Under the pieces are notes generated by a model, which did not search any database, was not told the origin of the DNA, and was given only the letters and a program-made list of their open reading frames with translations. Shown here piece after piece: positions 4,526 to 62,790 of a DNA stretch of 64,000 nucleotides. Every line of letters begins with the position of its first letter. Position 1 is the first letter of the stretch. The stretch covers positions 13,187,182 to 13,251,181 of the forward strand of contig NC_087074.1 in assembly GCF_026151205.1 (NCBI RefSeq), read 5' to 3'. The position numbers were made by a program, and so were the translations under genes. Source of the DNA: Bolinopsis microptera (taxonomy: Eukaryota > Ctenophora > Tentaculata > Lobata > Bolinopsidae).

Positions 4526-4554
4526 ACTCTGACATTCTGACTTAGAGTTTGTAG

Positions 4555-6117: not shown

Positions 6118-6120
6118 CTG

Positions 6121-9880: not shown

Positions 9881-10574
9881 ATTAGTGTTTATGAACAAAA
9901 AACACAATACAATGTACAAATGCCTTTGAACTCCCCAGGTAATTAAAAATTGAATTTATATATTAATTGTGCAATTAATATGCAATATAAAATTGCTGGA
10001 CCTCGCCGCGCATAAAATAATGCGTTTCACTATTAGCAATTAAATTTTAAATAAATGATGAAGCTACGAACTAGAACCAATTGTTGTTTAAAAACACAAG
10101 TTAAGGTGCTGCTATTAATTAGTAACAGTATAAAATTGTTCTTAATTGTCTAGTGTAGATTTCGAATTAGTTAAATGTTACATTAAGCATCATTTTGTTG
10201 CCATGCACGATTTTGAGTATCTTCGATAAAATCTATAATAAAATCGAGCGCTATTATGTAATTTTCTGTAACTTTATACTCTGCGTCTAGTCTGTCCGGT
10301 TCATTTTATTAGCAGCAAATCAAATAACCATTTCACTTTTGTACATTAAATAACGAAACAAAATGATTCCAATAATAGTGCTTAGTTGTTAGTATCATTT
10401 GTATTTTAAAGAAGAAAAACAGATATAGCTAGCTCATTTATTGGATAAATTGATTGCACTACAAAGCAATTGATACCCGATTGGAGCCAATTACAAGTCT
10501 TCTGATTAACGTATACAACTTTCTCAAGACGTTGTATCTTCGAAAAGTTGTGAACACTGAATGCTGATAATAAG
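9881..10574. other. Intergenic, A+T-rich, no gene recognised
   Basis: No reading frame with a family signature and no convincing exon. It contains a G+C-rich spot near 10000 (ctcgccgcgcat) like those near 6.5 kb and inside the 25-29 kb foldback. Confidence 0.4.
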
Positions 10575-15726: not shown

Positions 15727-15827
15727 AAGATCGTTATAAATAAACTATTATATAATATCGTATATATTGTCTACCTTTACATATCAAGATATTTATTTTG
15801 AAAATTTCCCTTACACACTTTCATTTC

Positions 15828-18103
15828 TTCATAAAGTTACCCACACCATTGAGCGCAGAATAGCTAAGAAGGGATATGTCCTAGGAGTTTTTCTTGACAT
15901 AGAGGGCGCCTTCGACAACGTCTCGTTCAAAGCTATTTCTGATGCAGTCAGGGCCACGAAAGTGGACCTAGCTACAGCGCAATGGATCATCAACATGGTC
16001 ACTAATCGCTTTATCAATCTAAGTCATAAGGATAAGTCGAGAAGGGTACAGATCAGGAGAGGCTGCCCACAGGGAGGCATCCTTTCTCCTTTTCTATGGA
16101 ACCTGGTAGTCGACGATCTCCTCTCCTTTACTGCGAAGGACATACCGGGTTACCTGCAAGCCTTCGCAGATGACCTGGCTTAACTAGCAGAAGGAAATGA
16201 CCTGGACATCATCTGGAACCGCACATGCAAAACCATCAATACGATAGAAAAATGGTGCCAAACCAAGGATCTATCTATCAGCGCACTCAAGACTCAGATA
16301 GTCATGTTTACCTGGAATACTAAGTGGACTTTGAGACCAATAAAAGTTGGCAACAACATTATAGGTCTCTCGAAGTCGGCTAAATTCCTAGGTGTGACAT
16401 TATAATTAGACAGCAAACTCAATTACAACGAACATATCATCAACATCACCAAAAAAGCCACGGCATCCCTCATGCAATGTCGAAGAGCTGTCGGCCCCAC
16501 ATGGGGTATGAGCCCTAAAACTTGTAAATGGATGTTCACAGCGGTCATTCGACCCATTCTGTCCTACTGCTGTAGTATATGGATCAGGGCAATTGACACG
16601 GACTACAATGCGAGGAAGCTCAAACGTGTGCAGGCATTGGCACTGAGAATGATGTCTGGTGCCATGCCAAGTACACCCTTCCTCGCATTGAATCACCTTA
16701 CTGACACCCCAGACACCATACTATTCCTGAGGGGCGAAGCAGCGAAGGGGGCAGCAAGGCTTCAAGCCTACGGCAGCCTCACTCTTGAAACTATCGCCCA
16801 CAGGAAGGGAACTATCAAAAACCACACCACAATCAACAAACAATTCATGGAGGATCTCAACATACCACCTAGAGCCACAAGAGACCTCACAGCACCAACC
16901 ATGATGCTGGGACGGCACTTCACCGTCACCACTCCTGGAACTAACAACACTGAATACAGAACCGCACTCCAACACACCATCGACAACATTACCAGTGAAA
17001 CGATCACCTGCTACACAGACGGGTCTCTATCAGACTCCGGAAGTGGGGCTGGGTACATCATCACGACTGACAACAACAACACCACCCTGGAAGAGAGATC
17101 ATTCAAGCTCCCTGATTATTGCACTGTCTACCAGACAGAGCTCACTGCAATCATTGAAGCCTGCAAGTATCTCTCATCCTACACCAATTCACACATCATT
17201 ATATGGTCTGATAGTCTCTCCTCCATACAAGCTATTTCCTCGCTTTCAACGAGGAGCAGAACTACTAGAGACTGTTATGACACCCTTAACGCACTCGGAT
17301 CAAACAACACTCTAGAGATCCGATGGATCGCAGCCCATATTGGGTTGTGGGGAAATGAAAAAGCGGATGAGCTGGCCAAGCTTGGCACGACCAGCGAACA
17401 CGTTTTGAAATGCCCAATCCCTCAATCTTACATCAAACGACAAATCGACAACAAAGTCCACAGACTGAATCAGGATATCTGGTTAACGGATGGTCCTAGA
17501 CACACCAAACTAACACTTGGCCAAAAGCACACCAAAATAATCAATAATATAAACACGTCACTCATCAACAATAGACAAGACTATAGAACCGCAGTCCACC
17601 TAATCACGGGCCACTGTGGCTTAAACAAACACCTCCACACCATCCGCAAATCAAGCACCAGTGCTTGTCCTATGTGCGGTGACGGAGAGGAAACTGTCTC
17701 ACACTTTCTTGGACAGTGCCCAGCTATTGCCCAACTAAGAGGTCAATACTTTCGGGACTACTACCTCTCGGTCAACGACATATTCGACAACCACCACATT
17801 ACCACAATCGTCAACTTCACAAACCGCACCAAACGCTTAATAGTACCAGAAGAACTGGATCAGACTGGCGTAACTTAGCGCATTAACACATTACATATGC
17901 AGCCTTGCCTAACTGATCTATAAACTCATCTGGTACCAAAGCGCGGTATTCCCATTCAGATCATTACCACCACCGTCCTCCACAATTCACACTGTTGTCT
18001 CCAATAAACCCCCCCTCATCCCAGAGGTAGGCAAAGCATCTTAATGCTATCCTCTAGTGGGCTTTCTATGCCCAGCCTCTCTTAAAAAAAAAAAAAAAAA
18101 AAA
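15828..18103 (+). mobile_element. 5'-truncated LINE with RNase H domain (I/Ingi-like), 11-bp TSD
   Basis: It begins inside the RT and ends in a 20-nt poly-A run (18084-18103). It is flanked by ACTTTCATTTC at 15817-15827 and 18104-18114. The RT shows FLDIEGAFDNVSF, GCPQGGILSPFLW and AFADDLA, interrupted by TAA at 16181-16183 and by another stop near 16403. The frame then runs open from 16472 to 17878: the thumb region, then an RNase H domain (CYTDGSLSDSGSG, ELTAIIEACKYL, WSDSLSSIQA, NEKADELAKLG), then a C-terminal zinc cluster (CPMCGDGEETVSHFLGQC). An RNase H downstream of RT is typical of I-clade LINEs. The copy is dead through its stops. Its insertion point lies in the splice-acceptor tract of the exon at 18117. 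Confidence 0.92.
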
Positions 18104-43381: not shown

Positions 43382-44462
43382 ATGAGGGCTATCGTTCAGA
43401 AAGTAACCAAAGCTTCAGTCACAAGTAAGGAATCAGGCTCGAAAATATTTGAATAAATTTTAGATGATATATACCTCACGTTGCCGTAGATGCCACTGCA
43501 GTAAATACACATTTCGGTGATCATTTCAGTCGGAGACCGTTGTACGGGATCTATTGGTCCAGGAATGTGTGTCCTGCTTGGAATATCAACAAAAGATACA
43601 GAGAAAGAGATCGAATGGATGTTAGTTTATCTGAGTAACTTCACACTTTTCCACTATTTGTGAATGACATCATTTATACAACTGAGATAAATTGTGCTGT
43701 TACGGACACAATCACGTGACTGTTGTTCTAATAATATGTTAATTAAATTCACGGATTGCACTTCTAAACCAGGGCAAACAAGCTGGTAAAGTTGAGGATA
43801 TTCAACAACCCTGAGACAGATAAACCCTGGGATGCAGACTTGCTGCAGTGTAAATTAGCGATACTCGTCGTCAGTCAGGTAAATGATTCAATATTCATAC
43901 TTTTATTTTATCCTAATCTGACTCAGCCTCAGGAGTTTCAATTTTTAAAGAATTTACGATGTGGTTAGTGAAGTTTTTGTTTACAATGCGACCCTCTCAG
44001 TTCACCTTGCAATGTGTTTTGAAAGGGAACAAGCCAGACTTCCACGGAGCTATGAGAGCTGAACAGAGTGAGCAAATGTACAACAAGTTTTTGGAAGTTC
44101 TCAAATCGAAGATTCCTTATTCTGATACCCTTGTTCAAGGTAAGTCTGGAAACTTCTTTTTTGTCTGTCTAACAGACTTACTTTCAATACGATTGCTCAA
44201 TTCCAACTTGGCTCTGTTCTATGTAATCGTCTTATCCTCAGAGGGCGAGTTTGGAGCGTTTATGCAGGTACACATTCAGAATGATGGACCAGTTACTATA
44301 CCGATAGATACACCCGAGAGCTTGGCGACACAGAAAGTGAAACCTTCCAAATCAGCTAAACAAAACAATAGAAATCAAGGGAAAAAGAAGGCTGAAAACG
44401 CGGAAAATAGTACTGATAAAAAAGTAGAAGAAGTAACTGAAGATCTTGACAAAAAATTGTAA
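43382..44462 (+). CDS. DTD1: D-aminoacyl-tRNA deacylase 1, copy B (199 aa, five exons)
   Basis: Exons 43382-43424, 43530-43620, 43773-43878, 44001-44139 and 44242-44462 have the same structure and phases as copy A and give 199 residues. It shares SQFTLQC and NDGPVTI, and keeps the lysine/glutamate-rich disordered tail (about residues 150-199) typical of animal DTD1. Its VLKGNKPDFHGAM segment is closer to the vertebrate form than copy A's. GPGM replaces GRGM at the otherwise Gly-Arg-Gly site after the first strands. Exon 3 is nearly identical to copy A's (about five differences in 106 nt), while exon 4 is much more diverged, suggesting gene conversion. This copy looks like the ancestral-type gene. 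Confidence 0.94.
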
Positions 44463-44976
44463 TTTAGTCGGGATGTATGTATATGATTTTAAATTTTTTT
44501 GATAGAAAATCTAGGTGCATTATGATGTAGATGTATAGTCTTTAGAAGTTTGTTCTTGAAGTTTGTTCTTGAAGTTTGTTTCTTAAATTTATTTATTTCC
44601 TTCTGTAAGTTATATATTTCTAGGAATAGCAATTAAACCAAGGTAGTTTCAAGGGTAAATGCACCGTGGTGTTCGCTCGTCAACATCTCAGCGTTGCAAT
44701 TTCCAAAACAAGTGTATTTTCTCTTTACACTAGCTTGAGCAATTATCATATATCTTTGTATCTTTTCTTGGGTTAGTAGTCTCGACTGCATAGACAACTT
44801 TCACCACCATTCAAAGCAAGTTATTCTACATTTTATTTTAGTCTAATCATCTATAACAATTTTAATTTGATAGCTGCAGAGTCTAATGAAACTGCAACTG
44901 TACATTATGTTGTAAGTATACAATATACAAGTATACAATATACATACATCTAATCAAGTTCAGCCTGTACTAGAGA

Positions 44977-45418
44977 ATGGTGCGCCGTATTAAAGTGGAA
45001 GAATCGGGGGAACAGTTGGATAACTCCGCTGAACTGGACGGACCTGACGAACCCCTGCCCTCCCTTCAAACTCTTCAACACGCTGATCTACCGGACTTAC
45101 AATACTCAGATACTACCCTAAGGCTATCCGCTTTACCAGAGGTACCTCAACCTAAACAGTTCCATCATTACAAGCCACCACTCTCAACACCACACCACGC
45201 TAAACCACACCACTCAACACCACCATACCCCTCACTCATTACTCAACCTTTGTCTATAAAAATCACAACTTCACAAGTCAGTTGGGATGGTTTGAGTGCT
45301 CCAAATGTGACACAGAATTTCCCAGCAGTGGTGGCCAGTGGCACAAAACCCAGACCGACCTTTCCTTGTATCCAAAGAGTTAAAAGTCGGTTCAAAGAGC
45401 GTATGATACCAGTACCAG
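44977..45418 (+). CDS. Candidate TRPA alternative first exon 1 (147 codons)
   Basis: The ATG at 44977 opens a 442-nt frame ending at a GTTTGT donor in phase 1, the phase required by the 54454 acceptor. The peptide is disordered, rich in proline and histidine (FHHYKPPLSTPHHAKPHHST), and basic at its end. It is long and has no stop until after the donor, so a coding exon is likely. Joining it to TRPA across a 9-kb intron is inference. Confidence 0.55.
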
Positions 45419-47081
45419 GTTTGTACTTTAAAGCTTAAGTTTAAATATAATGTGCTTTATCACAGAAGCTTTTTTTGAAGTTATGTTCTCGTAGCCGCTC
45501 CAGAAAGGGGCGGTGCTGGTCGATATCGTTTTATGATTTAAAAAATTAAACTTTTGAATTCCAAATTGTGGACTGCTCAGCCAACTTAAAACTACCAGAA
45601 AGCAATCTCTGTTGGGTTCACGTTAAAACTATCCGATCACGATCCGTGCTCTCGTTTGGGGGTACTGCTTGAAAATTGTGCTGATTTTCACAAAATTGTG
45701 GTCCTCACTCTACCATAACTTACGAAATTGCTCTGAACAATGAACATTTTAATAGCCTAGATAAGCTTGCCTTAGCCGCATATTATTAGCTGATTGCTGC
45801 TATAATTGTACCCTGTATTTTTAATCAGTCCTGGCCTTTTCGACTATCACTTAGACGAATTATGCGATGGATTTTCCATGATAATGAGTATTAATATACT
45901 TTATTCGTGAATAATATCCTATCATCTGCTTAAATTAGTACTGGTACCACAAATCACAATAGCGCTACTCTTGAGAGTGGAACGTTATACCTTGGTTTTG
46001 AGGTGACAATAGGATTTTACTGACACCTGACCATTTGGCTCCGTCAGAAATCTCAGCATTCACAGTCTTCAGCTGTTTTTCACTTACGTAAATGTATGTT
46101 GTTGTAAACAGTAAAGTAGTGTTCGAGCTATATTTTGTCGCAACTAAGTCACTAAGTGAAAGAATTTGTTCAGTCTAACAGCATACTAATGCTGGAGTGA
46201 TAGTTTTTTGAACCGTCAAAAATAGTTTGACGTAAAGTATTTACGGAGAATAAGAAATTCTCCGTTTCGTTTGCTTGCTATAAGATTAATCATAATAATA
46301 CCTGCTATTGTGATATAATAATATAAGTGTGGTTAATGGTTATACTTTTGGACAGATTAGCCCTCTTTGTCTACAAACTATTTGGTCAAATGGAATTCGT
46401 GATACACAGTTAAATATTATGTACATTTAGTCACACTTCTTAAACTGTTAACATGAACTGCCCAGGCTATGCAAATGCCTAACACATTTTTATACTCTGT
46501 TCGAAAATACGAATTGTGTATCAACTGCTCAATAGTAGTTAGTAGTTATGTATTTGACATAAATTACTGGCGCTGACTGGATCACTGGACCGCTTCGATT
46601 GAACTCACTGGTTTAATTTCCTGTTTGGTACAAGCTCATTGTTACCAGTTACTGGTTATTCGGCTTTTCTTGCGTTATCATGTACATATTACCTTGATAA
46701 TTTAATTCAATACTTACTGAACCTTACTGAACTCTGCTCACGAAATTTAGTTTCATTTCAAATAGGTTTGAAGAAGAAAGGGGATTGAAGCCCAGATATA
46801 ACCCAGATATAACCAATCTGACTCAATGAAACCGCCAAATTGGGTTCTTTTATGCCTCAATCTGGTGCAATCTGACAGTTTCGACTGAAACTTAGAAAAT
46901 ATTTTCATAAGTTTCTATCATAAAAATAAGTATAATACCAATCTATCCTTTAAAAAGGCGTATCTGTAACAAACACTAACAGCTGTATTTGCTGCACCAT
47001 ACTCGATGCTATGTTTGAGTAGTCAGTCCCTTGGCCTTGATACAGGGGAAGGAAAGTAGAGTTTTCAGTTGATCGGCTGGA

Positions 47082-47130
47082 ATGTTTGGGAGGAGTACCA
47101 TCATACCTGGGGAGCCGCGCCAGCATCGCT
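47082..47130 (+). CDS. Candidate TRPA alternative first exon 2
   Basis: ATG plus 16 codons (MFGRSTIIPGEPRQHR), ending in phase 1 at a GTGAGT donor. Its 49-nt length equals that of the two following MF-starting exons. Confidence 0.45.
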
Positions 47131-47391
47131 GTGAGTCATTAATTAAAATAATTAGGTTGTCGTTGGGGCATTTAAGCCATATTCGATGGTAAATCGTATA
47201 ATTGTCCAGTTATATGTGTGTTTGATACGCTGTCATGAACTGGCGGAGTAAGTCGGAAGTTTGTCGTAATCGAATTTGCTTATTAATTTTTCTGTCTGCG
47301 GATTTTGACGAGATATTTCTGTTTTGTGTAATGACAAAAGTTTGCCGTTAGCTTGTCATATTTGAATGGTTAGAAATAGACGGGCTTTGCG

Positions 47392-47440
47392 ATGTTTAGA
47401 CCTCCTAAACCACCTAAAACGCCTACTCATGTTAAACGGA
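47392..47440 (+). CDS. Candidate TRPA alternative first exon 3
   Basis: ATG plus 16 codons (MFRPPKPPKTPTHVKR), ending in phase 1 at a perfect GTAAGT donor. Exon and flanks are duplicated at 47910. Confidence 0.5.
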
Positions 47441-47909
47441 GTAAGTAATGCACTTTTTAAATATTTATTGGTGCACGTTTTCATGGTACATGAGCATGCT
47501 TTTGAATTGATCCAAATCCCGCGGATTCTTTAAATCTTCAAATAGGAACAAAGATTTGTGGCACTGCCGACATCGGTCCCATCACTACGGCAAATAAAAA
47601 TTTGGGAAACTGATTGTCCCACGGAACATTTCTGAGTATACATTTTTAGTGGCAATGATCATTAATCACTGAAACACCGGGTTTCGAGTAATTTATAGCA
47701 TGAGCTGGTCATTAAGTCATTTTCGATGGTAAATCGTGTAATTATCCAATTTTATGTTCTTGATACGCCGCAGCATGAATAACTCGACTAAGTTATTAAA
47801 TTCTTTCTGTCTGTGAATTTGACGAGTTATTCTGCTTTGTGTAATAACTAAAAACTGCCGACTGTCATATACTGTGATATATGATTGGTTAGAAATAGAG
47901 GACTTTGCG

Positions 47910-47958
47910 ATGTTTAGATACCATAAACATAAAAAGCAGGCTACCTATCCCAATCGGA
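47910..47958 (+). CDS. Candidate TRPA alternative first exon 4
   Basis: ATG plus 16 codons (MFRYHKHKKQATYPNR), ending in phase 1 at GTAAGT. It is paralogous to the exon at 47392: the preceding 'gattggttagaaatagag' and 'actttgcg' are shared, as is sequence both further upstream and downstream. Confidence 0.5.
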
Positions 47959-48526
47959 GTAAGTATTAAGCACATTTTTGTTTTTACACACATTTCACAA
48001 ACCTCTGATTGGTTCACATTATCCGGAACTAAACGATGTCATTTTTCTGAAAAATAAAAGTAAAACCTCGCTGTCCCACAAGTCACCCATCTCTCGGCAT
48101 TTGCAACACTAAGAGGTCCATATCCCCCTCTTCCTCCGGCCACCATTTCTTATTTCATTCCATGTATTATATTATATGAAAAATTTTTCAATTTAACGAT
48201 TTAAAATCTCGTGGGCATCTTCTCCAGACCCCTGCTGTTGTTCACTCTGCAGCCACTTTAACTTTTTCCAATCAATAAATCACCACATTTAAAAATTCTT
48301 TAAAAATATTTAAAATCCTTAAAATAGGAACGTAGATTTGAAGCACTGCCGATATCGGTCCCATCACGATTCACTACTGCAAGCTAAAATTTGGACACAG
48401 ATTTTTTTTCATTCCTAAGAATATTTTCCGAATTTGAATCACATTATTTAAAGTACCAACTGGAACTTTATTATATTTCGTGACAGTCGAGTTTGTGCAC
48501 TTAGCCACGGCCTTAAGTTTCACGTG

Positions 48527-48582
48527 GATTCAGTCCGATTATCAGTCCGATTATCAGTCCGATTATCAGTCCGATAACCCTC
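48527..48582 (+). repeat. Short tandem repeat (atcagtccgatt)n
   Basis: Four imperfect copies of a 13-bp unit containing 'cagtccgattat' lie in the TRPA 5' intron region. Confidence 0.8.
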
Positions 48583-48752
48583 ACTATACTATACTATGAA
48601 CGATAAAATTCTACAACGCTCATTCCTCCTACATTTACAAAAGATTCGATTGCTTGATAATGATCATAAGAAGCAGACCTGTTGTACACTTTTGTTCTAA
48701 TGTTGGAGTATCAGCTATTTAATAATCGTAGTTACCTTTCTTAACTGCTCCA

Positions 48753-48800
48753 ATGGCTAACAATCCCCTGGAGGCTGGATCCCTTCTAATAGATATAATG
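48753..48800 (+). CDS. Candidate TRPA alternative first exon 5 (phase 0)
   Basis: ATG plus 15 codons (MANNPLEAGSLLIDIM), ending in phase 0 at GTGAGT. Phase 0 cannot enter the 54454 exon but fits the 55783 acceptor, so it would skip the common exon. Confidence 0.38.
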
Positions 48801-49165
48801 GTGAGTTGTTAACTGGTCACCATAGCGACTGGTTACTTGTCAGTGTTTAGTGGTTACCCTAGCAACTCAATACATGTAACCGAATTTGGAATGATCTGCC
48901 GCCTGATACATGATACTTAAAACTCATGTTCGCTTCGTAACACCGGCTTTTCTAATCATCAGCATCTAGTTCCTCTCTTTGTATTCCTACTATACACCCT
49001 ACTATACCTCCAATTAGCTAGACTGTTAACACAGCCTGTATGCGTTTTCGGTGTTTTTCGGATATTTTTGAGATTTCATATAATATTCTGTCCTCGCTTC
49101 TTCCGTGACTGCTTTTCGTCCAAATCACAGCTCGCGGAATCCCCTCGCCTCCCTGACTTCACAAA

Positions 49166-49292
49166 ATGAACGATATGTTGGGTGATTTACCGCAGATTGA
49201 TGAGGTGGAACTCAATAATGTTCCTGATTTCCTGAGGGGCAACAAGGTGTCTGACGTTAGCTTACTTCAAGCATCTGATTTTACCCAGTCTG
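49166..49292 (+). CDS. Candidate TRPA alternative first exon 6
   Basis: ATG plus 42 codons of acidic peptide (MNDMLGDLPQIDEVELNNVP and more), ending in phase 1 at GTATGT. Length and composition look coding. Confidence 0.52.
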
Positions 49293-50111
49293 GTATGTTG
49301 ATATGTTGATATTATGTTGATATGTTGATATGTATTGTACTGCTCGTCGACATTTGTTAAAATGTACACTGTACTGTAATTTGTCAACTGATTTACCAAA
49401 TTGTTCGGTAATTTTTGTCCAAAATATTACATGTAGTACCGAAGACGCTCTCGTATCTCGTATAATACGTATCAATGTGGAACACGGTCGACACTTCTAA
49501 ATGCTAACGACTACTCCCCCTCTCTCTATATTCTGCATGTTCCGATGTACCTGTAACTCTTGTGTAACTTGCTCATAACACCAGTGCTTAAATAACAAAT
49601 AATTTGAGCGTTCTAGATGCAATGAGGGCGACAAGCTTGAAACTGCCAGAGGGAGTTTGTAGTACCCTAGCATAGTTCCACCATGTTTCATTTGTCAATC
49701 TTGTTAAAACCTCCTTTACATAGTGCTGATTTGTGCAGTGAAAATTGTATTCCATTTCACTCCAGTGTTTATGAAACTAGCGTCAAATTCCATCAAAATT
49801 ATACCATTAATCAGATCATGAGAGTCTGTTTTATCGTATAACAGGTGTGCTCCAGGCTCGAACATGAGTATATCAGATTACTGTTAACAGTCCACTCTCA
49901 ATACAGCATGAGACACACATGGATTGGCTAGTCGTGATCTAGTTTGCAATTATCTACGGTTCATCTCTCTCATTTACTTCTTATTATTCGTTTCGCCGTT
50001 TGTACTTTACAACCTTCTTTACCAGCGGTTTTGCTGTACATTCTATTTCGTACTAAAGAAAAGGGAGAGGACGTGCAGTTGTTAAATCAAGCCGCCTGAT
50101 TTGGATGAAAC

Positions 50112-50211
50112 ATGCAAGAAGACCCCAATGGAGCAGAACAAATCAGGTTCCGGGTTCTGGAGAACAGAGAAGCTGCAGATGGGGGATACGGAGCAACTTT
50201 TAAGGACAAAT
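50112..50211 (+). CDS. Candidate TRPA alternative first exon 7
   Basis: ATG plus 33 codons (MQEDPNGAEQIRFRVLENRE and more), ending in phase 1 at GTATGT. A second open frame overlaps it (50101-50322), but that one has no matching donor phase. Confidence 0.48.
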
Positions 50212-50381
50212 GTATGTCAACATTTTCTAACTAAGCTGGTTAAAACTTCACTCCAAATAATCGGGCTATCGCTGTATATCACTATCAGAGACTACAAAGT
50301 TTTTATGACCCACTATAAATAAAGAGAGAAGCTGATAGTTGCATATTTTATATGCTTATTTAACTACATATATGACATCAT

Positions 50382-50656
<275 letters not shown>

Positions 50657-50935
50657 TCAGCTCTCTCCCTCACAATAGCGTAATAGCTAGACACCTGACA
50701 GTTCATGCATGTATTAATGCAAGTGTGGAGTGTAACGTTAACTCATTAGTATGGTTTAGGATTATTGCCTTGGATACCAAGCATTGAGTTCCTGGTAATA
50801 TTAACTCTAACTGCGCTGCGAGCTTCAGTTGCTTGCACTGTACAGCATGTTGTAACGTGTAGTAGTGAATAAGAGCGTTTTGTTGTATTTTACTTTAAGT
50901 TGGATCAAGGAAATGAACGTGATTTATAACCCGGG

Positions 50936-50957
50936 ATGATTTACAAAAACTCTGCAG
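50936..50957 (+). CDS. Candidate TRPA alternative first exon 8 (very short)
   Basis: ATG plus 7 codons (MIYKNSA), ending in phase 1 at GTAAGA. Too short to be convincing alone; it is listed because it fits the pattern. Confidence 0.28.
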
Positions 50958-51240
50958 GTAAGATTAGTACACATTGTATACAGAAGCTATGTATTATCAA
51001 ATATTTTAAAAATTGTTTTGATTACAAAGTTCGGGCCTTATTCGGATTAATCAATATCTTTTCTGTGTATACGACATACGTTTGTGAATCGTGTCAGATG
51101 GTCCATACATCTCGGACTTTGAGCGGTACCTTCTTTATTGTAATCTATTATGCCATTCGCTTCAATCTGAGTTGACTTTGAAGTATACCCAGAAAATGCT
51201 TTTGAATAGATTTTGAAGTAAGTCGTCTGGAATGCTAGAA

Positions 51241-51345
51241 ATCCAGTTTCTTAGTGTAGACTAGTGATAAATGTATCGGGCGTACAATAGTTAGTCGACA
51301 ACAGAACTGCGACATTTATTACTGGTCTACACTAAGAAACTGGAT
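51241..51345 (+). repeat. Short hairpin MITE
   Basis: 'atccagtttcttagtgtaga' at the left is mirrored by 'tctacactaagaaactggat' at the right, giving inverted ends of about 33 bp around a roughly 40-bp centre. Non-coding. Confidence 0.75.
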
Positions 51346-51371
51346 ATTTTCGCAGTCCTGTAAGGGGCCAT

Positions 51372-51709
51372 CTACTTAGGACGTCCGGCAAATAGGGAGG
51401 GGGGTGGTTTTGAAATTTCGGACAAATCCGGACAGGGGGAGGGGGTGGTTTCTGAAAATCCAGACGTTGGCAGAATTAACGAAAAAGTCCCATTTATTTC
51501 AACTCTTTGAATTTTATTTCAACTCTTTGAATTTGATTAACAATGAATTTGAGTTGGTTTTATTTGTACTCTTAAAAGTAGCTGGAAATCCGGACGTCCG
51601 GGGGAGGGGGGGGGGGGTGGTTTTGAAAATTCGGACACACCCGGTCAGGGGGAGGGGTTTGTCTGAAAATCTGCGATTTTGGCGGACGTCCTAAGTAGAT
51701 GGCCCTTAA
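51372..51709 (+). repeat. MITE (AGGGGCCATCTACTTAGG family), complete copy
   Basis: TA-AGGGGCCATCTACTTAGGA at the left and TCCTAAGTAGATGGCCCT-TA at the right form inverted ends of about 23 bp. Internal G-rich tracts lie just inside each end. It is about 340 bp long, inserted in an ACAGT-rich sequence. The left half recurs at 716-1070. TA flanks fit Tc1/mariner-like non-autonomous elements. Confidence 0.78.
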
Positions 51710-52423
51710 CAGTCCTGTGACAGTACTGCAACAGTGCGACAGTCCTTTGACTGTACTGTTTCAGTACTGTGGCAGGTCCTGTGACAGTACTGAACAATGG
51801 TTCATAAATATAAAAAATAAACAAGTTCAACATTCTGTCGCAGTTCTGACTTCTGTCGCAGTTCTGTCTTAGCTCTGTCACTCTGTGGATTACCACTGTA
51901 CTGTTGTGGACGAGCTATTGTACGCCCAAATTTTCACACGTATTCAGTAATTTTGCAATCATTCAACCCTTTTTGAATTTCACCTCAATAATTAATCTAA
52001 CAATGGATCCATTGTAAGGTTAATTATTGTCTTCAAATACTGGATGCTTCCCCGACTATTGTAGTATCAGGCAAAGTAGACGATAGTGCAGTTAATTTAA
52101 CCTTATCCACATTGCGAGTCATTGGCATTTTTTTTTGCTTGTACGTGAGTGAATGCTTGGCTCCATTCAGGGATGCTTAAATATAAACGCAATCGTGCTA
52201 TTAAATCGAGGAACCCCTGGCAACACAATTCTGGTTGTAAGTCTGCCAGTGTTTTGTGTTTTCTGAAGAATAGTTTGTGACATTCTTTCACTCGGCCATA
52301 GCTCAGTGGACTGGAAAGTCGGATAGGTCACAGCACCCATCAAGGTTGCTGAATTTTCAACTTGCTCTAATTTTACCTCTGCTATATCAGTATATCAATA
52401 AAGCCATATCCTTGTGAATTGAT

Positions 52424-52454
52424 ATGCTTGCCGGTGGAGATTCTTGGGATGTCG
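52424..52454 (+). CDS. Candidate TRPA alternative first exon 9 (short)
   Basis: ATG plus 10 codons (MLAGGDSWDV), ending in phase 1 at GTGAGT. Short, but with a consensus donor and the right phase. Confidence 0.33.
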
Positions 52455-52857
52455 GTGAGTCACGTGATGAACGCATTTGGGATCATTATGATTAATCTAA
52501 GACTTATCATGAACTGAGTACTGTCTTTTAATATTTCCTAGTTTGCACCGTCCTCTAGTTGGACTAACGAGTGCAAAAGTGGTGTTAGTTACTGTTTACT
52601 TCAAGACCATTCCTCATTCAAACTGGTTCTTCATTCAAGAGATCTGCCTAATGTTGAATTATTGCAACTAACCGATCCTGGACCAAATGAAGAGATAGGA
52701 TTAGTTTTGGGCAGCACAACATTTTCCGGCCTTTAGCTTATCGGTTTTTGTTTCCCCAGCCCTAACTTTTTCCTCTGAAAATGGAATATTTAAGGCCCTC
52801 AACATTAAACGGATAGTATACATGTTTTTTTCCTATACTTGTTGGCATTATCTCTTA

Positions 52858-52858
52858 A

Positions 52859-52893
<35 letters not shown>

Positions 52894-54254
52894 CACCCTA
52901 ATTTTTTTGTAAAACTTGGTTTCGAGATAGCAGTTGACCAACAAACTAGGACCGGTGACCAAACTTTTGAGGGGGTCCCCGACCCCAACCGCCAAACGGT
53001 GCCCGCGGGGCAGCCACGCCCATATTTGGTTCAAATTAGGCCCAATTTAGCCAAATACCCTGAACATGCCCAAAACCCAGATTTTATGTGCTCTTCTTGT
53101 AGCTAGTGGTCCCCTGAACAAGTATATGAATTTTCATCAAGATTGGGCAAAAAATGACTGAGTTATGAGCCAAAAACCATATGACCATATTTGGGCATAC
53201 GCACCAAATTTGATCGATTTTGGCCCATAAATTGGTCAAATATCAATATTTTTGAATGAAAACAACTTTATATGAAAGGTAAGCTTATACTACACATTCT
53301 CTATGATTATCAGCTCAGTATCTACCTAACTGTGGATTCTGTGTTCAAATAATCACAAAAAATGAACAAAATCGTCCATATCTCAGTTCGCGATATTTGC
53401 AAAACTGATTTCGCTCAAAACAATAGAACTCAATAGGGTTTCAATATTTTTACATGAAATTTTCAGAATCAACGTAGAATCGCACGCGCATTTCTACCTT
53501 ATCTCTTGTATTGAAATTTTGAGTTAGGCCTTTAAAAAAATTTGGCGGCCAAATTCCAAAATTTGCCAGGCATTTTTCAGAATTTGGCCGCCAAATTTTT
53601 TTAAAGGCCTAACTCAAAATTTCAATACAAGAGATAAGGTAGAAATGCGATTCTACGTTGATTCTGAAAATTTCATGTAAAAATATTGAAACCCTATTGA
53701 GTTCTATTGTTTTGAGCGAAATCAGTTTTGCAAATATCGCGAACTGAGATATGAACGATTTAGTTCATTTCTTGTGATTATTTGAACACAGAATCCACAG
53801 TTAGGTAGATACTGAGCTGATAATCATAGAGAATGTGTAGTATAAGCTTACCTTTCATATAAAGTTGTTTTCATTCAAAAATATTGATATTTGACCAATT
53901 TATGGGCCAAAATCGATCAAATTTGGTGCGTATGCCCAAATATGGTCATATGGTTTTTGGCTCATAACTCAGTCATATTTTGCCCAATCTTGATGAAAAT
54001 TCATATACTTGTTCAGGGGACCACTAGCTACAAGAAGAGCACATAAAATCTGGGTTTTGGGCATGTCCAGGGTATTTGGCTAAATTGGGCCTAATTTGAA
54101 CCAAATATGGGCGTGGCTGCCCCGCGGGCACCGTTTGGCGGTTGGGGTCGGGGACCCCCTCAAAAGTTCGGTCACCGGTCCTAGTTTGTTGGTCAACTGC
54201 TATCTCGAAACCAAGTTTTACAAAAAAATCAGGGTGAACCCCCCCCCCCCCCCC
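52858..54254. mobile_element. 1.4-kb palindromic element with G/C-tract ends in the TRPA 5' intron
   Basis: A run of about 33 Gs (52859-52891) starts the left arm and a run of about 16 Cs (54239-54254) ends the right arm, with TA outside each. Between them, arms of about 690 bp are near-exact reverse complements, meeting around a roughly 24-bp spacer near 53557-53580 ('tttggcggccaaatt' mirrored). No gene is encoded; short open frames at each end are mirror images of one another. It lies between candidate first exons 9 and the common exon, so most TRPA pre-mRNAs would carry it. Confidence 0.82.
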
Positions 54255-54453
54255 TATACAGCACAATATTGTTCAATATACTCGTGATAGGACCTTGAGG
54301 GGACCTGCCCATACCTGATAACATTCTTGATATTTTTGGCTAGATCACAACTATCTCTAATTAATTAAAAAATATGCTACTTATATGAAAAGTTTGAAGT
54401 TACACGAAGCTATCTAATTTGTATTTCTCAATTTAACAATAACACATTTTCAG

Positions 54454-57400
54454 TGGTTAGTTCGAATCAGTTCTCCCTAAAGAAGTTAGAAAATGAGTTG
54501 GGAGGTCTTACACTTCATCAGGTTGGTTTATTTTCGTTACATTTTAGAAGTAACTCACTGCTATGTATAATATGAAGTTTTAAAGTTATAATTCTTGTTC
54601 TTACATAGAATCTCGAACTATAAAGCCATGACTTTGAACTTTGAAGCTTGTGATAATTTAAAATTAAGCGATTGGAAGTCCCCACAATCCTCCCTAAGCC
54701 AAATTGCTTATTGCCTCAATCCAGCCTCAAAAAGCTTGTAACCGGTACAATAGATAAGGATTAAAGTCAATCGTAGCTACTAATGAGAATCTTGGAAGCT
54801 CTTTTGTTGTAAAACTAGTAAGCATTACGACAGATTTTAACTGTTAAAAATCTGTGTAATGCTTACTAGTTTCTCGTCACTTAAAATTCAACTTGTATAG
54901 ATTTGGATCACACTGCTTGTTCTTCTGTCAACTATCCACACTGTGTTGTTCTCAGTCTCAATCTGCTAGACATTTACTGCACATATCGCATATTTAGCAT
55001 GCACTAACTTTATCTTCCAACTTTGTTCAAAATTCAATATGGTTCGTTCCATAACTGTTATCCTTTTACACTTTTACACACCTATCACCTTTGTTAAAGT
55101 CCAGGACTACACTTATTCCGTAATATTAACTGTTCAAGCGTGTCGTCTGCTGTAGTTATTAGTTAACGATATTTCTTACTGGAGCTTGATAAAACTGTAT
55201 TATTTCTGTTTGTAAGATTGTAAAAAGTAAACCAGTCCACTTTTGTAACCCCGAACTTATCACCATGATCTTTGCTATTGATGTTTCATATTTTGAACTT
55301 GCAGTCAAGACCATTTGTACTCATGTGTATAGTTTTGTAGTTTTGCTAAGGATTGTAGAATCTGACAATCGTTGCGGAGGACATAAGACTCACCATGCCG
55401 TACCCCCGATATCCTAAAATCGTAAACCCGCCCGGGCTCCCCTCCGAAAACTCGGTGGCGGAGACGCGGAGCGGATTGCTCTAACTGGCCGGGCGCCTGG
55501 TTTGGTTCATCACTCTGGTCTGACTACTCACTCTATATTCTCTGAAATGAGTGATCTGGACTTGCTGGGAAGCAGACAGACTCTTAATGACTCCACATAC
55601 GTTCACTTTCTTGTAACTGTACGTCTTTACAAGCCTCTGTATTCTGTATTCTGTATGATAGATGTTTCACATTGATCTGTTTCCGTAAGTTTCATACTTT
55701 TCACACTTCCTTGATCTAGAATCTGAGGATAATAAAAGTAAAGATCATTTTAAAATGTGTATCTAAACTCGCTGACTTGCAGGCAGCGCGCGAAGGGAGG
55801 GTGGATGCAGTTAAGTTGTACCTGAAGAGCGCATACTACAACAAGCGGCACAGGGGTGCTATACCACCCATAGACAGGTATAGTAGTAACTGTAAGCAAA
55901 TCATATTGAAGTAAGTGAAATAAAAATTCTGCGAAAACGAAAACGCTTCAGCAATTGTTAAGAACATATTGTCTGATTGGTGTGTAATCGAAAGAAGGAG
56001 TGAGATTATAACACAGCTCTTCAGGTTGGATAGTGATGAGGTAGGAGCCCTTCACTATGCTGCTAGATACAACCACCAGGCGGTCATGCAGCTTCTCGTC
56101 GACTTCAACGCTAGTCAGTATTTCAAATTGTTGTAAACCTTCTTTTGAAGAAACGTGAAAATTGCGAATGATGATCATTTTTCCAGAGATTTGGATTTAT
56201 GCACGTTTCGATTGCATCGTTATTCGTTATTTTGGTTAATCAGGATTGCCTAGAAAGAGTGCAGAAGTGTGTCGTATAGTAGAGCAGGAAGTCTGGTACT
56301 AAGAGATAATAAGTTTAAACCCACTAACCTCTAATTCTCTCCCAGATGTGAACAACCCTGCCCAGGACGATCTAACACCCCTTCACTACGCTGCACGGTA
56401 CACTCCTAAAGGTACCGCTGAGATGGAGACTGGTTTGACTGAGGAGATTGTCCCGCTTCCTCCCACCAAGGTACGTTCTATCTCGCTACCCACGTGCTGG
56501 TAAATGAATAGTGTGGCCCAGTGAGGCTTGCAAACTAAAGAGTTACCAATACATTCTATCTCTTCAACACTATCTTCTCTCGTAATTCGGTTTTGCTAAT
56601 TGGCGTTTTTAGTTACAATTTTACTCCGTTTCCAGAAGATAGATGTGATAAAATGCTCTATTAACAAGAAGGTTCAGAATGTTTTTAAGGGCAAGCCAAA
56701 AAAGACAACGTCGCTAAGTGACGGACTTTTAGCAGCCACCCTTACTTTTGATGTAAGATTGTCGCTCAGAGCTGATTTCCGCTATTCGTGCTAATACCCG
56801 ATGCTTGAGTACAGTGTGCCTGCTTGAGTACAGTGTGCCTGCTTCAGTACAGTGTGCCTGCTTCAGTACAGTGTGCCTGCTTGGTACTGCAAGGCTGACT
56901 ATGTTATTCTAAGATTCTGTCGAAAAAAATGTTCTTTGTGGGTCGTGGCGGCATTTTATCAACAGTATTAATACGAAAGTGCTCTCTTTCTGACTTATCA
57001 CTCTCCTCCTATAGGAAGAGGAAGAAGGCGAAGGTGAAGAAGATGAAATCGATGATGAAAAAGATGTAGAAGAAGTAGAAGAAGACGAAGAACTAGCAAC
57101 CGAGGACACGCAAGCAACTCGACTTCTCAGCGAGATACTAGCAGAAGACTTTGGATCCCCTCCTATACAGTTTCTGCTGGATCAGGGAGCTAATGTTAAC
57201 GCTAAGGATAAGTACGGTCTTACCGCCCTGCATTGTGCAGCAGACAGAGGCAACTACGCTGCTGTAGTTGAGTTGTTAAAGCATCCTAGCATCATCATCG
57301 AGTGTCAAGGTATGTGTTGATTAGTCGCCCATGGTGAACATTCTGGGTAGATTAAGCCGATAAACGTACTACAAAGTTCAGATATACCAATGAATTCAGG

Positions 57401-60400
57401 TTGACAGTCAGCGTTATTAGATTTCCCCAACACATTCTAATTTCCTGCATTCCCAGATAAGCAAGGAGAGACCCCTCTCCAGCTAGCAGTCCGAGCTAAT
57501 TCTATGCCGTGTGTAAGAAAACTTCTCAGTGTTGGAGCTAAAGCTAATTGTGAGAATTTCAACCAGCTGAGCGCGCTACACAGTGCCTGTACGGAGAGCA
57601 ACTTGGAGATCCTCAAGATGTTGTGTGAGAGGTTGGAGGCCGAGGGAGTGAAGGACTTAGTGAACAAGGTTTGCTATTTTTTATAGGTTTTGTGCACGTC
57701 TGAGAAAGTAATTAATTGTTTTGTGTAAATGCTGAGACCTTCGTTCATCTTGATCGTTAGGGTGGTGATGTCTTGGTGGCAACGAGGTAACAGTTTGTCG
57801 TTTATTCAGACTAACGATGAGTCGATGACACCACTTCACTTTGCTGTAGAAGTCGGAGCTGAAGATGTCGTTAACTTCCTTGTTGATTACGGTACGCTAT
57901 TTTCAGTCGACTAACTTTTACGTTTTAGTTTTTCAACGTTATGAAAATGTTGTGAAACAACTGTACATTGGTATTTGGTACTGTTCACCTGTTGAACCCC
58001 GTAGAAACCCCGGGAAAAGCGCACATTTTCCAACCTGCCAGTAATGGCCAGTCTTAACATTTACAGGAGCTGATGTAACGCTAAAAAGGAAGAACCTGGA
58101 TACACCTCTCCACCTGGCAGCTAACCACGGTTTTGTAGAGATAGCCAGAAAACTGGCGAGTAAACAGTCCAATATCGACCTGGACGCAAAGAACCTGGAG
58201 AGAATGACCCCACTTCACAGTGCTGCTAGGATGGACAGAGAGAAAATGATGCACCTTCTTATTGAGAGGTTAATACTTTAACTCAGGGTGTGGACTTATC
58301 TCGGTATTTTATTTTTACATAGGTGTGATATTATGACCATGTTTATACTTTATCATAGCTCTTCAATCTTCATCAACTATAAAATTGTGAATTGTACACT
58401 AGCTTTAACGCATTTTAATCAGGGGAGCAAATCTAGAAGCACTTGATAAAGACGGATCAACCCCTCTGATCACGGCAGCTGGTTGGGGACAGATGGCAGC
58501 AGTGAAGATACTTCTGGAATCAGGAGCTGATGTCTACGCGCAAGATAAACGAGATAAAACAGCAATATTCCACGCGGTGGAGGAGAGTAGACCTAAGGTA
58601 CTGAAGTTATTGTTGGGCAGAAGAGGGAAACAGAACCTGGGGAACGAGATTGACAAGTTCCAGAACACCCCGCTACATTTAGCTTCTCAACTTGGCTTCC
58701 TCTCTTGTGTCAGAGTCCTTCTTGAGGTTAGTTACCATCCAACTGGTCTTTCTATTAACGTGTTAAAATCTTGGACAGGTTTGATATTTTTTACGATTAA
58801 GTTCTCGATACAATCTACGAAGTCTGCTATCAATCAGGATGTATATTTTCTAAATACCTGTTTGTTATATTCTTAATAAACTCTGTTAACTCCTTTTACC
58901 ACCAGTTCGGCTTCTGTAGTGATGCCCAGAATGAAGATGACATGTGTCCGCTCCACCTTGCTGCACTACACGGACGAATCCAGTGCGTCAAGGAGCTTGT
59001 CAAGTATGTTATCTCAATTTTGAAGTTATTTTCAAAATACTCTTGTAAGCCGATATTTCAAGCCAAAAGTCTGGTAATTTTAAATCTTTACTTTTTTTGA
59101 ACCCCAGCATATTATGTAGCATATTATGTAGATTATGTACTAATCATTAGAATAAGTTGAAACCGACAGGTGGGATCCAGCAATTGTGAACGACGAGGAC
59201 GAGATTGCAAACACCCCTCTCCATTACGCTGCTCAAGCTGGACACGTTAAAACTGTCATCTTTCTTACTGAGGAAGCCGCTGATGTAGACGCCAAAAATC
59301 AGGTACAACCCGACTCAATTTGACGTTTCTTCATTTTTCAAATGTGTTAGGCTACAAATATCCCAAATATTGAGTTTCAGAAATTTCCGCCCATACAAAC
59401 GATTCAATTTAGTTCTTCTTCTAATGTGACTGCATTTTTGCAGTTTGGCTGGACTCCAATGGATTGTGCAGCAGCGTGTGGCATGACAAAGACCCTTGCT
59501 GCTCTCCTTGACGCAGGAGGTGAAGTTGACCCCATCGACAAAGCAAAAACCACCCCTCTTCATCTAGCTGCAAAGAACGGTCACGTGGACACGGTAGAGT
59601 TTCTTCTTGATAACGAAGCTAACATCAGACTCACTGATGTTGATGGGAACAACGCTCTGGAGTTGGCGACCATGCATACCAAGAAGGAGGTTGCGGAGAC
59701 TATTATCGAGTAAGAGAACTGGTTTCTGTATAGTAAAACCCCGATTTACAGCGGAATTTTGGGAAAGGAAAATCGGGGTTTTACTGTACTACTTATTGTA
59801 CTGTAGGCGCTTATTTAGCAGTGATGATTAAACTATAAAATTAGCGTAGTTGCTGAAATATCAGTCACACTTACTTGGGAAATCGGAACATACCCTCACA
59901 TTGTCTGAACCAGGCACAAGAAATGGTTCGCGTCGATGGATAACCGACACCCAAACGGTGACACCCCCATGAAGAAGCTGATCCGGATGATGCCTGACGT
60001 GGCAATGCAAGTGTTCAACAAGTGTACTGATGACAGTTGTAATCCTGAGCACATGACTAATGATCACAAAGAGTACCAGGTTAAATCTTATCATCTTATC
60101 TTACCTAAGTTAATCGTGTGTTTCGTGGATATGATATAGTTCTGATGTTGTGCGCGTACTCTTGAGAAAATATCTTGAAGAGCTGTCTTTAAAAAATCTG
60201 TTCAAAAGACTTGTTAGCAATTGATATTCTCCAGGTGGAGTTTGATTACAGATACTTAGATGAAATAGAAGAGGACGATGAATCCGCAGAATTTGAGGAC
60301 AGCAAGAGTCTTATGTCAGATACGACTATTCTTCCAGACCAGCACATCACTCACGACCAGATGAAGCCTCATCCTCTACAAGTCATGGTGGGTCAATAAT

Positions 60401-62790
60401 ACTGCAAGCTAACCTACCTTCAATTGAGTTCTACCGATTGTTTATAAGCTTTTTTAATGGACTCCGTTTTATTTTAAATATAAGCGCAAGTACATAATGG
60501 CTCTAAATGTTTTCACTCCTTTTATTCTATTCCCTCACAGAATCGAGACACGTACAACTAATATTTAACGGTATATTTAAGTCTCTTCCTTCAGGTGAAA
60601 GCTAAACGGATTGAACTTCTTGACCATCCGCTGGTTCAGTCTCTGATCTATAACAAATGGGAGTGCTACGGGAAATGGTTCTACTACTTCAACCTCACTG
60701 TTTACCTCATCTACCTCGCTTCTCTCACCATCTTTGCCTTGAACCAGAAACCACCCTATAATGCTGCTAACCCTGATAACATGACCAAATTAAAAAATGT
60801 TTTAGATTGCGACGATTCTGAAAAGGAGAGAGAATCAAATGGAGAAATTAACTGTGTGACTTTAAAATTTCATAAGCAGTGGTTGATCCAGATATTTGGT
60901 TTTATAGTTCTGGGCACCTCAGCTATTCGTCTGCTTCTGGAACTAGCTCAATTCATCGTTCAGAAGATCAAATACTTTTCTGTCATGAATGTTATCGAAA
61001 TCATACTGTTCGTTTCCTCCTTTTATTTCTGTCACACAGTGATATTTGGACTGCGGATCATCGAAAGTGAGGCTCAGTGGCAAATTGGTGTTTTCTCCGT
61101 TTTCATCGCATGGATGAATCTCATAATGTTTCTCAGAAAGGTACGGATGATAATGTCATATTTTATCTAGATTTTATACCAGTTTAAATTTTACCCGAAT
61201 TATTAAATATTTGTCACAAAACTCTAAACATAAACTCACATACTGATCGAGGTATTTGTTTCAGTTCCCTAAAATAGGAATCTACATAGTGATGTTCGTG
61301 ACTGTTCTGTTAACATTCTTACAAATCATGATAATTCTTCTCATATTTATTGTCGCCTTCGCGCTCTCCTTCAACATGGTGCTGGACAAGGTAAAGTGGT
61401 GTTTTATTTTCTTACTTGGTAATCAACCTGGGTCTTATTTTATAAACTTTTTCACGGTTTGCATCAAAATTTTTGGTCCGCTTGCAATATTTCGTGATCG
61501 TCAAAAAATTATCTTCCCTTACAGTTCGACGCATTTACCGAAGTGCTGCCTTCAATAATGAAGACATTTGTTATGATGACCGGAGAGCTGGAGTATGACG
61601 GTTACTATGTTGACGTGCCCCTCTATTACCCGGAAGCGAGCTACGCTCTCTTTATTTGCTTCGTCATTGTCGTCCCTATCGTATTCATGAACCTATTGGT
61701 AAGTTTTGAATCTGTCATCTCTTAATTACCAATAGTGGATTATTCTTTTATTGAATTACATCATGAAACAAGATTTGCGAGGCGCGGATCGCTAACAGCA
61801 ACGTTAGTAAGTAAGTGAAAATCCAATTAGAATTACTGAGAGCTCAATTACCTGCATCTAACCAGGTCGGTTTAGCTGTAGATGATATCAAAGAAGTGCA
61901 GCACAGAGCTGGTTTGGAGAGAAGTGTCATGAAGATTGAGCTCATATTTCAGGTTAGTTTAGACGATTAACTTTATTTCAAAATCTTATTCTGTGGGTTT
62001 ACATGATTTGAACACTAATTTTTTTCTGGTGTTGAAATTTTGACGATAACTCACCTCGCCAACATTCTCCCCAGGTAGAAAACCTTCTCCCACAGTTCTA
62101 CCTCCGCAAGATTAACCTAAAGAAAGCAAAATATTTTGTTAATCAAGGTCGGAAATTCCTCGGGGGTCTATGTTGTGGAATCACTATCAAAGATATACCT
62201 TTTAACGGTGAAACCATAAACGAAGCTCTTCATCCAAACAAGGTATTTATCTTCCCTATAAGCTTAATTGCTTAATCAATTTCCAACCAAATTTATTGGA
62301 ATCATGAGTGTCCGATCATTTATTGTGGAAAATAAAAATTCGTGCTGTTTCCTTTTCCGTTTCACTGAAATACCAACCCATCTAATTACAATCATGTTAC
62401 TTTCAGACCGGTGTAGACGAATTAAAGTCCACCACGGAGTCGCTTGAGAAGAGTGTTAGGAGGATGAGAGTGCAAGTTGATCAGGTGATTAACATTCCTA
62501 AAAATAACAATTTGTTATTTCATTGTTAAGATAAAATAGGCGGACTTTTCCAGATTAACATTCCTTCACGCAATGTTTGTACCCACGACTACCGAGAGTT
62601 TGTGTAACACAGAGAGGGCGCATAAAACAACAAAAAGAAAGCAACTAAACCCTCCCCCTTTCAGCTAACCCAGCAAAACGGCCACATAATCAGGATGTTG
62701 CACGTGCTCTCAGCTGGAACCAGCTCTACTGCTAGTGACGATATAAACGTGGACCAGGACCTTTACACTGAGATCGGATCCAGACCGTAA
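54454..62790 (+). CDS. TRPA: TRPA-family ankyrin cation channel, common exons (about 1236 aa plus variable N-terminus)
   Basis: Exons: 54454-54521, 55783-55877, 56025-56113, 56346-56470, 56636-56752, 57015-57309, 57457-57668, 57810-57891, 58067-58268, 58423-58726, 58906-59003, 59170-59302, 59444-59709, 59914-60079, 60235-60387, 60595-61140, 61265-61390, 61525-61698, 61866-61952, 62075-62242, 62407-62484 and 62665-62790. All junctions are in frame. The N-terminal two thirds are ankyrin repeats (TPLHYAAR, NVNAKDKYGLTALHCAADRG, TPLHLAAKNGHVDTVEFLLD and others), interrupted by an insert of about 33 residues rich in E and D at the start of the 57015 exon. Six membrane segments follow (60595-61698), with a pore loop MMTGELEYD and an S6 continuing FMNLL-VGLAVDDIKEVQ. 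The C-terminus is mostly helical. TRPA channels pass cations in response to heat, cold, irritants or touch. AATAAA lies at 62906. Confidence 0.95.
54812..54872 (+). ncRNA. 61-nt hairpin resembling a pre-miRNA or tiny MITE
   Basis: The arms 'aaactagtaagcattacgac' and 'gtgtaatgcttactagttt' pair almost perfectly over about 28 bp with a single bulge and a short A+T-rich loop. It lies in the TRPA intron after 54521. Size and pairing resemble a short pre-miRNA, but perfect pairing also fits a minimal inverted-repeat transposon. Confidence 0.3.
55547..55612 (+). CDS. Candidate TRPA alternative first exon 10 (phase 0)
   Basis: ATG plus 21 codons (MSDLDLLGSRQTLNDSTYVH and more), ending in phase 0 at GTAACT, 170 bp before the 55783 acceptor, which takes phase 0. 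It lies downstream of the 54454 exon, so this form would lack that exon. The G+C-rich DNA just upstream (55400-55500) may be its promoter. Confidence 0.45.
56803..56884 (+). repeat. Minisatellite, 20-bp unit, four copies, in a TRPA intron
   Basis: 'tgcttgagtacagtgtgcc' is repeated four times with single-base changes (ttgag/ttcag). Non-coding. Confidence 0.85.
59731..59786 (+). repeat. 56-bp pogo-like MITE in a TRPA intron
   Basis: 'agtaaaaccccgattt' and its complement 'aaatcggggttttact' form the two ends, flanked by TA. The CAGTAAAACCCCGATT type of terminus is typical of pogo/Tigger elements. Non-coding. Confidence 0.6.

Follow-up and report, generated by a model that had tools for sequence, protein, structure and literature searches.

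In Drosophila, the TrpA1 gene is reported to carry two alternative first exons, TRPA1(A) and TRPA1(B), which have their own start codons and alter the thermal and chemical sensitivity of the channel (PMC11471635). Here we describe a TRPA channel gene of the ctenophore Bolinopsis microptera, located in a window of 64,000 nucleotides (nt) of contig NC_087074.1, for which a sequence-only reading had proposed ten alternative first exons feeding one channel core. As in Drosophila TrpA1, first exons with their own starts would provide a TRPA channel with differing cytosolic N-termini before the ankyrin repeats; unlike there, where two first exons are described, probably three to five are present here, tandem duplication of first exons is seen, and the gene is known from its sequence alone (PMC11471635). 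Among the papers listed for ctenophores together with TRP, promoter or leader terms, with preprints and most subscription papers outside the search, no title or abstract opening describes alternative TRPA first exons in a ctenophore. With moderate confidence, we read the locus as a TRPA gene with a variable 5' end, in which one of several alternative coding first exons is joined to a shared exon. On this reading, some three to five of the ten first exons are real, most likely 44977, 49166 and the pair 47392/47910 and perhaps 50112 (named after the window position of their first base).

The invariant part of the gene consists of the following features, given in window positions:

54454-54521, plus strand: shared exon (hub), 68 nt, entered in phase 1 and left in phase 0
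55783-62790, plus strand: TRPA constant part, 21 exons, with ankyrin repeats and Ion_trans domain
55783-55877, plus strand: first exon of the constant part, with a phase 0 acceptor, starting with AAREG of the first ankyrin repeat

Modelled exon by exon, the core comprises 22 exons from 54454 to 62790 and forms a single open frame of 1235 residues. Its N-terminal 644 residues matched Pfam Ank_2 (E-value (E) 4.9e-89) with 7 stretches and Ank with 10 stretches, and its C-terminal 567 residues matched Ion_trans (PF00520; E 4.1e-16, 59.4 bits at a cut-off of 25), the Ion_trans domain being placed after the run of N-terminal ankyrin repeats, as TRPA membership requires. Comparison of linker, membrane part and C-terminus with solved channels led to TRPA1 for the top nine chains (best E 4.1e-59); with the whole core as query, ankyrin-1 came first via its repeats (5e-124) and TRPA1 second (5.6e-118, residues 215-1144). 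Judged by these matches, which do not distinguish TRPA1 from other TRPA branches, the gene is a TRPA channel. The sequence-only reading had assigned the acceptor at 54454 to phase 1 and that at 55783 to phase 0, and both assignments are right. No in-frame ATG was found in exon 54454-54521, nor when it was read on unspliced into the intron for the 30 codons up to a stop, and the first in-frame methionine of the core is residue 75, within the second ankyrin repeat. The gene therefore needs one or more coding exons further upstream.

Three further features of the core region were noted. A strongly acidic stretch (EEEEGEGEEDEIDDEKDVEEVEEDEE, window 57015-57120) breaks into the ankyrin repeats. Read by eye from the alignment to TRPA1 (window 59914-60079), only the second of cysteines 621, 641 and 665, the chief electrophile sensors of human TRPA1, is retained, the others being T and E; electrophile sensing by the channel in the window may be weak or different. 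The intron before the shared exon contains a fold-back element (52860-54245), seen by eye as two long inverted halves joining near 53590.

The best new evidence for variable first exons comes from the closest paralogue, in which acceptor exon and phases agree with those of the window gene and a separate tandem pair of ATG exons of phase 1 is present. When the genome was searched with the TRPA membrane part, 31 matches were obtained, and the closest other gene was located on the same contig, 0.84 Mb away (membrane part C3:12408497-12409980, 43-57% identity by piece). Its AAREG exon lies behind the same phase-0 acceptor position as 55783 in the window. The counterpart of the shared exon was recognised by the match IGRQFTLDDIHQIKDNAGGIDFQQ, the best of all GT-bounded upstream segments and first at 4 of 4 lengths tried (score 21 with the next at 10 for 12 residues, 23 with the next at 18 for 16 residues); this exon has 74 nt, is entered in phase 1 and left in phase 0, and is likewise without an in-frame ATG. 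About 0.4-1.2 kb upstream of it lie two phase-1 ATG exons, MYVRSDSNLSSGSTDSSTSCLLESGAAAAYRRYLKHE and MYVRSDSNLSNDSSSLRESETASAYRRFLNRE (the MYVRSDSNLS pair), within a tandem duplication of about 700 base pairs (bp; reverse complement (rc) 27023/27723). The pair shows an in-frame length difference of 15 nt and a ratio of non-synonymous to synonymous substitution (dN/dS) of 0.27, with as few residue changes in 35 of 779 stop-free column shuffles, and chance retention was simulated at 0.1-0.2% for its own length and donor strength. A second duplication in the paralogue is recent:

G000:C3:12423211-12423825: second, recent paralogue duplication, 94% identical over 187 nt, with a spacing of 428

It holds another pair of phase-1 ATG exons (rc 19247/19675) and lies roughly 8-9 kb ahead of the shared exon of that gene, so that tandem duplication of first-exon candidates is observed for one pair in the window and for two in the paralogue.

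Elsewhere in the genome, ten further matches to the TRPA membrane part lie inside long open frames (627-1258 codons) on C8, C11, C6, C4, C14 and C5, indicating that the TRPA-like genes at these places are largely or wholly intronless. The N-termini of two of these long-frame genes showed no relation by eye to any first exon of the window locus, and for more distant TRPA relatives at C3:7.9 Mb and C1:23.7 Mb the 5' ends could not be placed.

The pair of the window itself lies in a diverged tandem duplication with about 80% identity where aligned:

47140-47482, plus strand: copy 1 of the tandem duplication, containing exon 47392, from local alignment with 47689-48023
47689-48023, plus strand: copy 2 of the tandem duplication, containing exon 47910, from local alignment with 47140-47482

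The duplication is local only, as no further copy was found elsewhere in the genome. Both copies hold a 49-nt ATG exon of identical phase with the donor GGA/GTAAGT, start and frame being retained. When control DNA was duplicated, mutated at the observed rates and scored for an exon kept in both copies, phase-1 retention was obtained in 0.2% if the ATG had to align and in 1.3-1.9% if not, and retention in any phase in 3.5-4.7%. It is only as a retained tandem duplicate that 47392/47910 rises above chance. Exon 47082 was considered as a third member of this 49-nt family and rejected; apart from its length and two initial residues it has nothing in common with 47392, from which it differs at 33 of 48 coding bases, and it has a poor donor. 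An apparently faster evolution of the exon interiors of 47392/47910 relative to their flanks turned out to be an artefact of ungapped alignment, the divergence being about equal once gaps were allowed.

The ten segments proposed as first exons are listed below with the outcome for each, donor scores being given in brackets:

44977-45418, plus strand: candidate first exon, 147 codons, phase 1, donor CAG/GTTTGT (10.5); supported
47082-47130, plus strand: candidate first exon, 49 nt, phase 1, donor (1.6); chance-level, not supported
47392-47440, plus strand: candidate first exon, 49 nt, phase 1, MFRPPKPPKTPTHVKR; supported as member of the retained duplicate pair
47910-47958, plus strand: candidate first exon, 49 nt, phase 1, MFRYHKHKKQATYPNR; supported as member of the retained duplicate pair
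48753-48800, plus strand: candidate first exon, 48 nt, phase 0, with 55783 as the acceptor it would need; control rate 0.52 per 11.1 kb
49166-49292, plus strand: candidate first exon, 42 codons, phase 1, donor CTG/GTATGT (9.2); supported
50112-50211, plus strand: candidate first exon, 33 codons, phase 1; weakly supported
50936-50957, plus strand: candidate first exon, 22 nt, phase 1; strong donor on a segment of 7 codons only
52424-52454, plus strand: candidate first exon, 31 nt, phase 1, donor (4.0); chance-level, not supported
55547-55612, plus strand: candidate first exon, 66 nt, phase 0, donor (-0.4); not supported

All ten indeed start with ATG and remain open up to a GT, and with the donors that the sequence-only reading most plausibly meant, eight leave phase 1 and two (48753 and 55547) phase 0. 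Donors were scored with a matrix built from the gene's own 21 donors (lowest core donor score 4.4), and ATG-to-donor segments were listed exhaustively over 44640-55782. On the plus strand this gave 43 segments at a donor score of at least 4, with 16, 12 and 15 in phases 0, 1 and 2, and 14 segments at a score of at least 6 (4, 4 and 6); the minus strand was similar with 14, 11 and 16 at the lower and 5, 1 and 6 at the higher threshold. As control, 257,143 bases of the same genome were used, a strict choice since genes and transposons were included; the TRPA relatives at C3:7.9 Mb and C1:23.7 Mb, less close than the paralogue, were used as controls. At a donor score of at least 6, the control DNA contained 5.4, 5.2 and 4.8 segments of phases 0, 1 and 2 per 11.1 kb, the unit of all control rates given here, and phase-1 segments of at least 300 nt occurred at 0.74, which makes length alone less telling. 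The proposed list covers 7 of the 12 phase-1 segments of the plus strand at the lower threshold and in addition 47082, which scores below 4; in three of the ten candidates (47082, 55547 and 52424) the donor is poorer than all 21 core donors.

These counts remove two of the original arguments. Ten first exons are not more than expected by chance, similar numbers being obtained from the exhaustive listing and from control DNA. The phase pattern (8, 2 and 0 segments in phases 1, 0 and 2) is gone as evidence once all segments are listed, and the apparent lack of phase 2 resulted from which donors had been chosen, as both the exhaustive list and the controls hold phase-2 segments. Eight of the ten candidates are phase-compatible with 54454, yet compatible segments are equally frequent in control DNA; four or five candidates stand out otherwise. 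Caution is called for with phase counts on hand-picked open frames, which appeared striking here and yet were due to chance.

For each candidate, we counted control segments of the same phase that were at least as long and had a donor as good and a codon score as high. No equal of 44977 was found (rate 0), followed by 50936 with 0.04, owing to the donor alone in this 7-codon segment, 49166 with 0.17 and 50112 with 0.43. The last has the top codon score among the ten and an out-of-frame ATG 7 nt upstream. Rates were 2.9 for 52424, 3.7 for 47392 and 3.8 for 47910; the values for 55547 (3.1) and 47082 (4.2) are lower bounds, as controls were listed at a donor score of at least 4 only. The proposal that two phase-0 exons feed 55783 is not supported: 55547 has a very poor donor, and 48753 counts neither as supported nor as chance-level. 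The peptide of 44977 contains no Pfam domain, and neither it nor that of 49166, the only two of the ten searched genome-wide, gave a second genomic match with an E of 1 or less.

Several observations speak against variable first exons, and the gene could have one 5' end only. A single ordinary first exon, probably 44977 or 49166, would then feed the shared exon, the other segments would be chance frames and the duplications neutral, which we regard as rather unlikely. It agrees with this explanation that control DNA yields candidates in equal number and with the same spread of phases and that the substitutions between 47392 and 47910 carry no coding signal (dN/dS 0.62, with 766 of 3858 shuffles as good). 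The exon of the window pair is conserved no better than its flanks (34 of 46 aligned bases compared with 171 of 209 in the 5' flank), the same applies to the paralogue (79 of 97 compared with 262 of 319 bases), and codon scores are slightly negative for 47392, 47910 and both exons of the MYVRSDSNLS pair. For this older paralogue pair the simulated chance rises to 4% at looser limits, and the recent duplication would hold a phase-1 pair by chance in about 5% of simulations. Finally, none of the first-exon peptides of the two loci were convincingly alike, so that they must, if real, have turned over completely. It speaks against a single first exon, however, that two paralogous loci each keep a diverged, splice-ready tandem pair in the same phase, which is rare in simulation, and that the dN/dS of the paralogue pair is 0.27.

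Alternative trans-splicing of a spliced leader, not considered in the sequence-only reading, is improbable but competes with separate promoters, as the genome probably contains spliced-leader arrays. One long pre-mRNA would be made, and the leader would be joined to acceptors before different ATG exons with no need of separate promoters. A leader-like sequence ending AATTTGAG/GTAAG gave 250 genome matches against 15 for the reversed pattern (21-base pattern, at most 3 mismatches), and among six loci viewed, three leader-like sites in two of them share leader and downstream sequence. Tandem arrays were located as follows:

G000:C3:13511044-13533398, C5:21341864-21352032, C13:12.78-12.95 Mb and 15.24 Mb: tandem leader-like arrays

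Periods are about 591 bp and 857 bp on C3 and C5, and one array lies on the contig of the window, about 0.26 Mb away. From their sequence these are probably spliced-leader RNA genes, the same ending having been reported for ctenophore spliced leaders (PMC8527503). In favour of trans-splicing, one acceptor that equals or exceeds the poorest of the gene itself lies 97 nt before 44977 and another 86 nt before 50112, but no such acceptor was found within 300 nt upstream of 47392, 47910 or 49166. Overall, 3 of 10 candidates have an acceptor within 100 nt upstream, close to the background of about 0.28 per 100 nt, compared with 2 of 5 control gene starts, so that this test is weak; gene labels of the five starts were assigned by eye.

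Beyond the TRPA gene, the window contains the end of an upstream neighbour, which marks the 5' limit of the locus:

43917-44462, plus strand: end of upstream neighbour gene, D-Tyr-tRNA deacylase family (Pfam PF02580 Tyr_Deacylase, E 6.6e-16)

It is very improbable that some segments, chiefly 44977, belong to other genes, either nested or situated in the interval from the deacylase gene to TRPA. In favour of it, 44977 starts about 0.5 kb past the neighbour's stop codon and encodes a peptide without known domain, and nested genes are described as frequent in ctenophores (PMC8527503); against it, phase 1 of 44977 suits the shared exon and no other stop-to-stop frame of at least 110 codons occurs between 45439 and 54454 save low-complexity or repeat sequence. 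Further upstream, long frames at 1631-9881 and 15740-17878 resemble, by eye, retroelement reverse transcriptase and endonuclease.

The sequence itself shows the core gene and its phases, that a start has to lie upstream, the duplications, and a paralogue laid out alike; alternative first exons remain our preferred explanation. The TRPA gene is real, the shared exon is sound and there are probably several first exons, though not ten and not on the grounds first given; what stands of the original proposal is a start-less shared exon taking phase-1 donors and more than one plausible coding first exon upstream of it, and the paralogue shows this layout too. In the proposed mechanism, a first exon, taken from several that lie within 9.5 kb upstream, would be transcribed, or trans-spliced, and then joined to the start-less phase-1 exon 54454-54521, supplying the start codon and a short cytosolic tail ahead of the first ankyrin repeat. 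We infer that each first exon may have its own promoter, that the first exons may be used in different cells, and that the tail would tune the gating or placing of the channel. By analogy, it could set thermal or chemical sensitivity, as reported for Drosophila TrpA1 (PMC11471635), or where an isoform is made or placed, as described for plectin (PMC8468861). New first exons would be born by tandem duplication of a unit of exon and at least 250 bp of upstream sequence, and then diverge.

If this is true, a ctenophore has a larger, duplicating set of first exons in two genes, and swapping of TRPA tails is either very old or evolved more than once; the tails would also be natural test pieces for the role of the TRPA N-terminus. 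A broader picture is possible, though we put it forward only tentatively: two paralogous TRPA genes of an early-branching animal, each with a fast-turning array of first exons renewed by duplication and feeding a conserved phase-1 exon, in a lineage that also trans-splices leaders, would multiply the tails of sensory channels much as vertebrates multiply UGT1 and protocadherin first exons. As in the descriptions of these clusters, an array of first exons, some of them tandem duplicates, would precede common downstream exons and be shaped by birth and death through duplication (PMC1885805, PMC3325998). In contrast, the variable exons described there are large and encode whole domains, whereas the candidates here are short (49-442 nt) and probably encode unstructured tails (PMC1885805, PMC3325998). 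Closer in this respect is the plectin 5' end, where a dozen first exons are reported to give short, differing N-termini onto one common exon 2 (PMC8468861). Plectin is, however, a cytoskeletal linker and not a channel, and its first exons are described with transcript support, whereas those of the window are read from sequence (PMC8468861).

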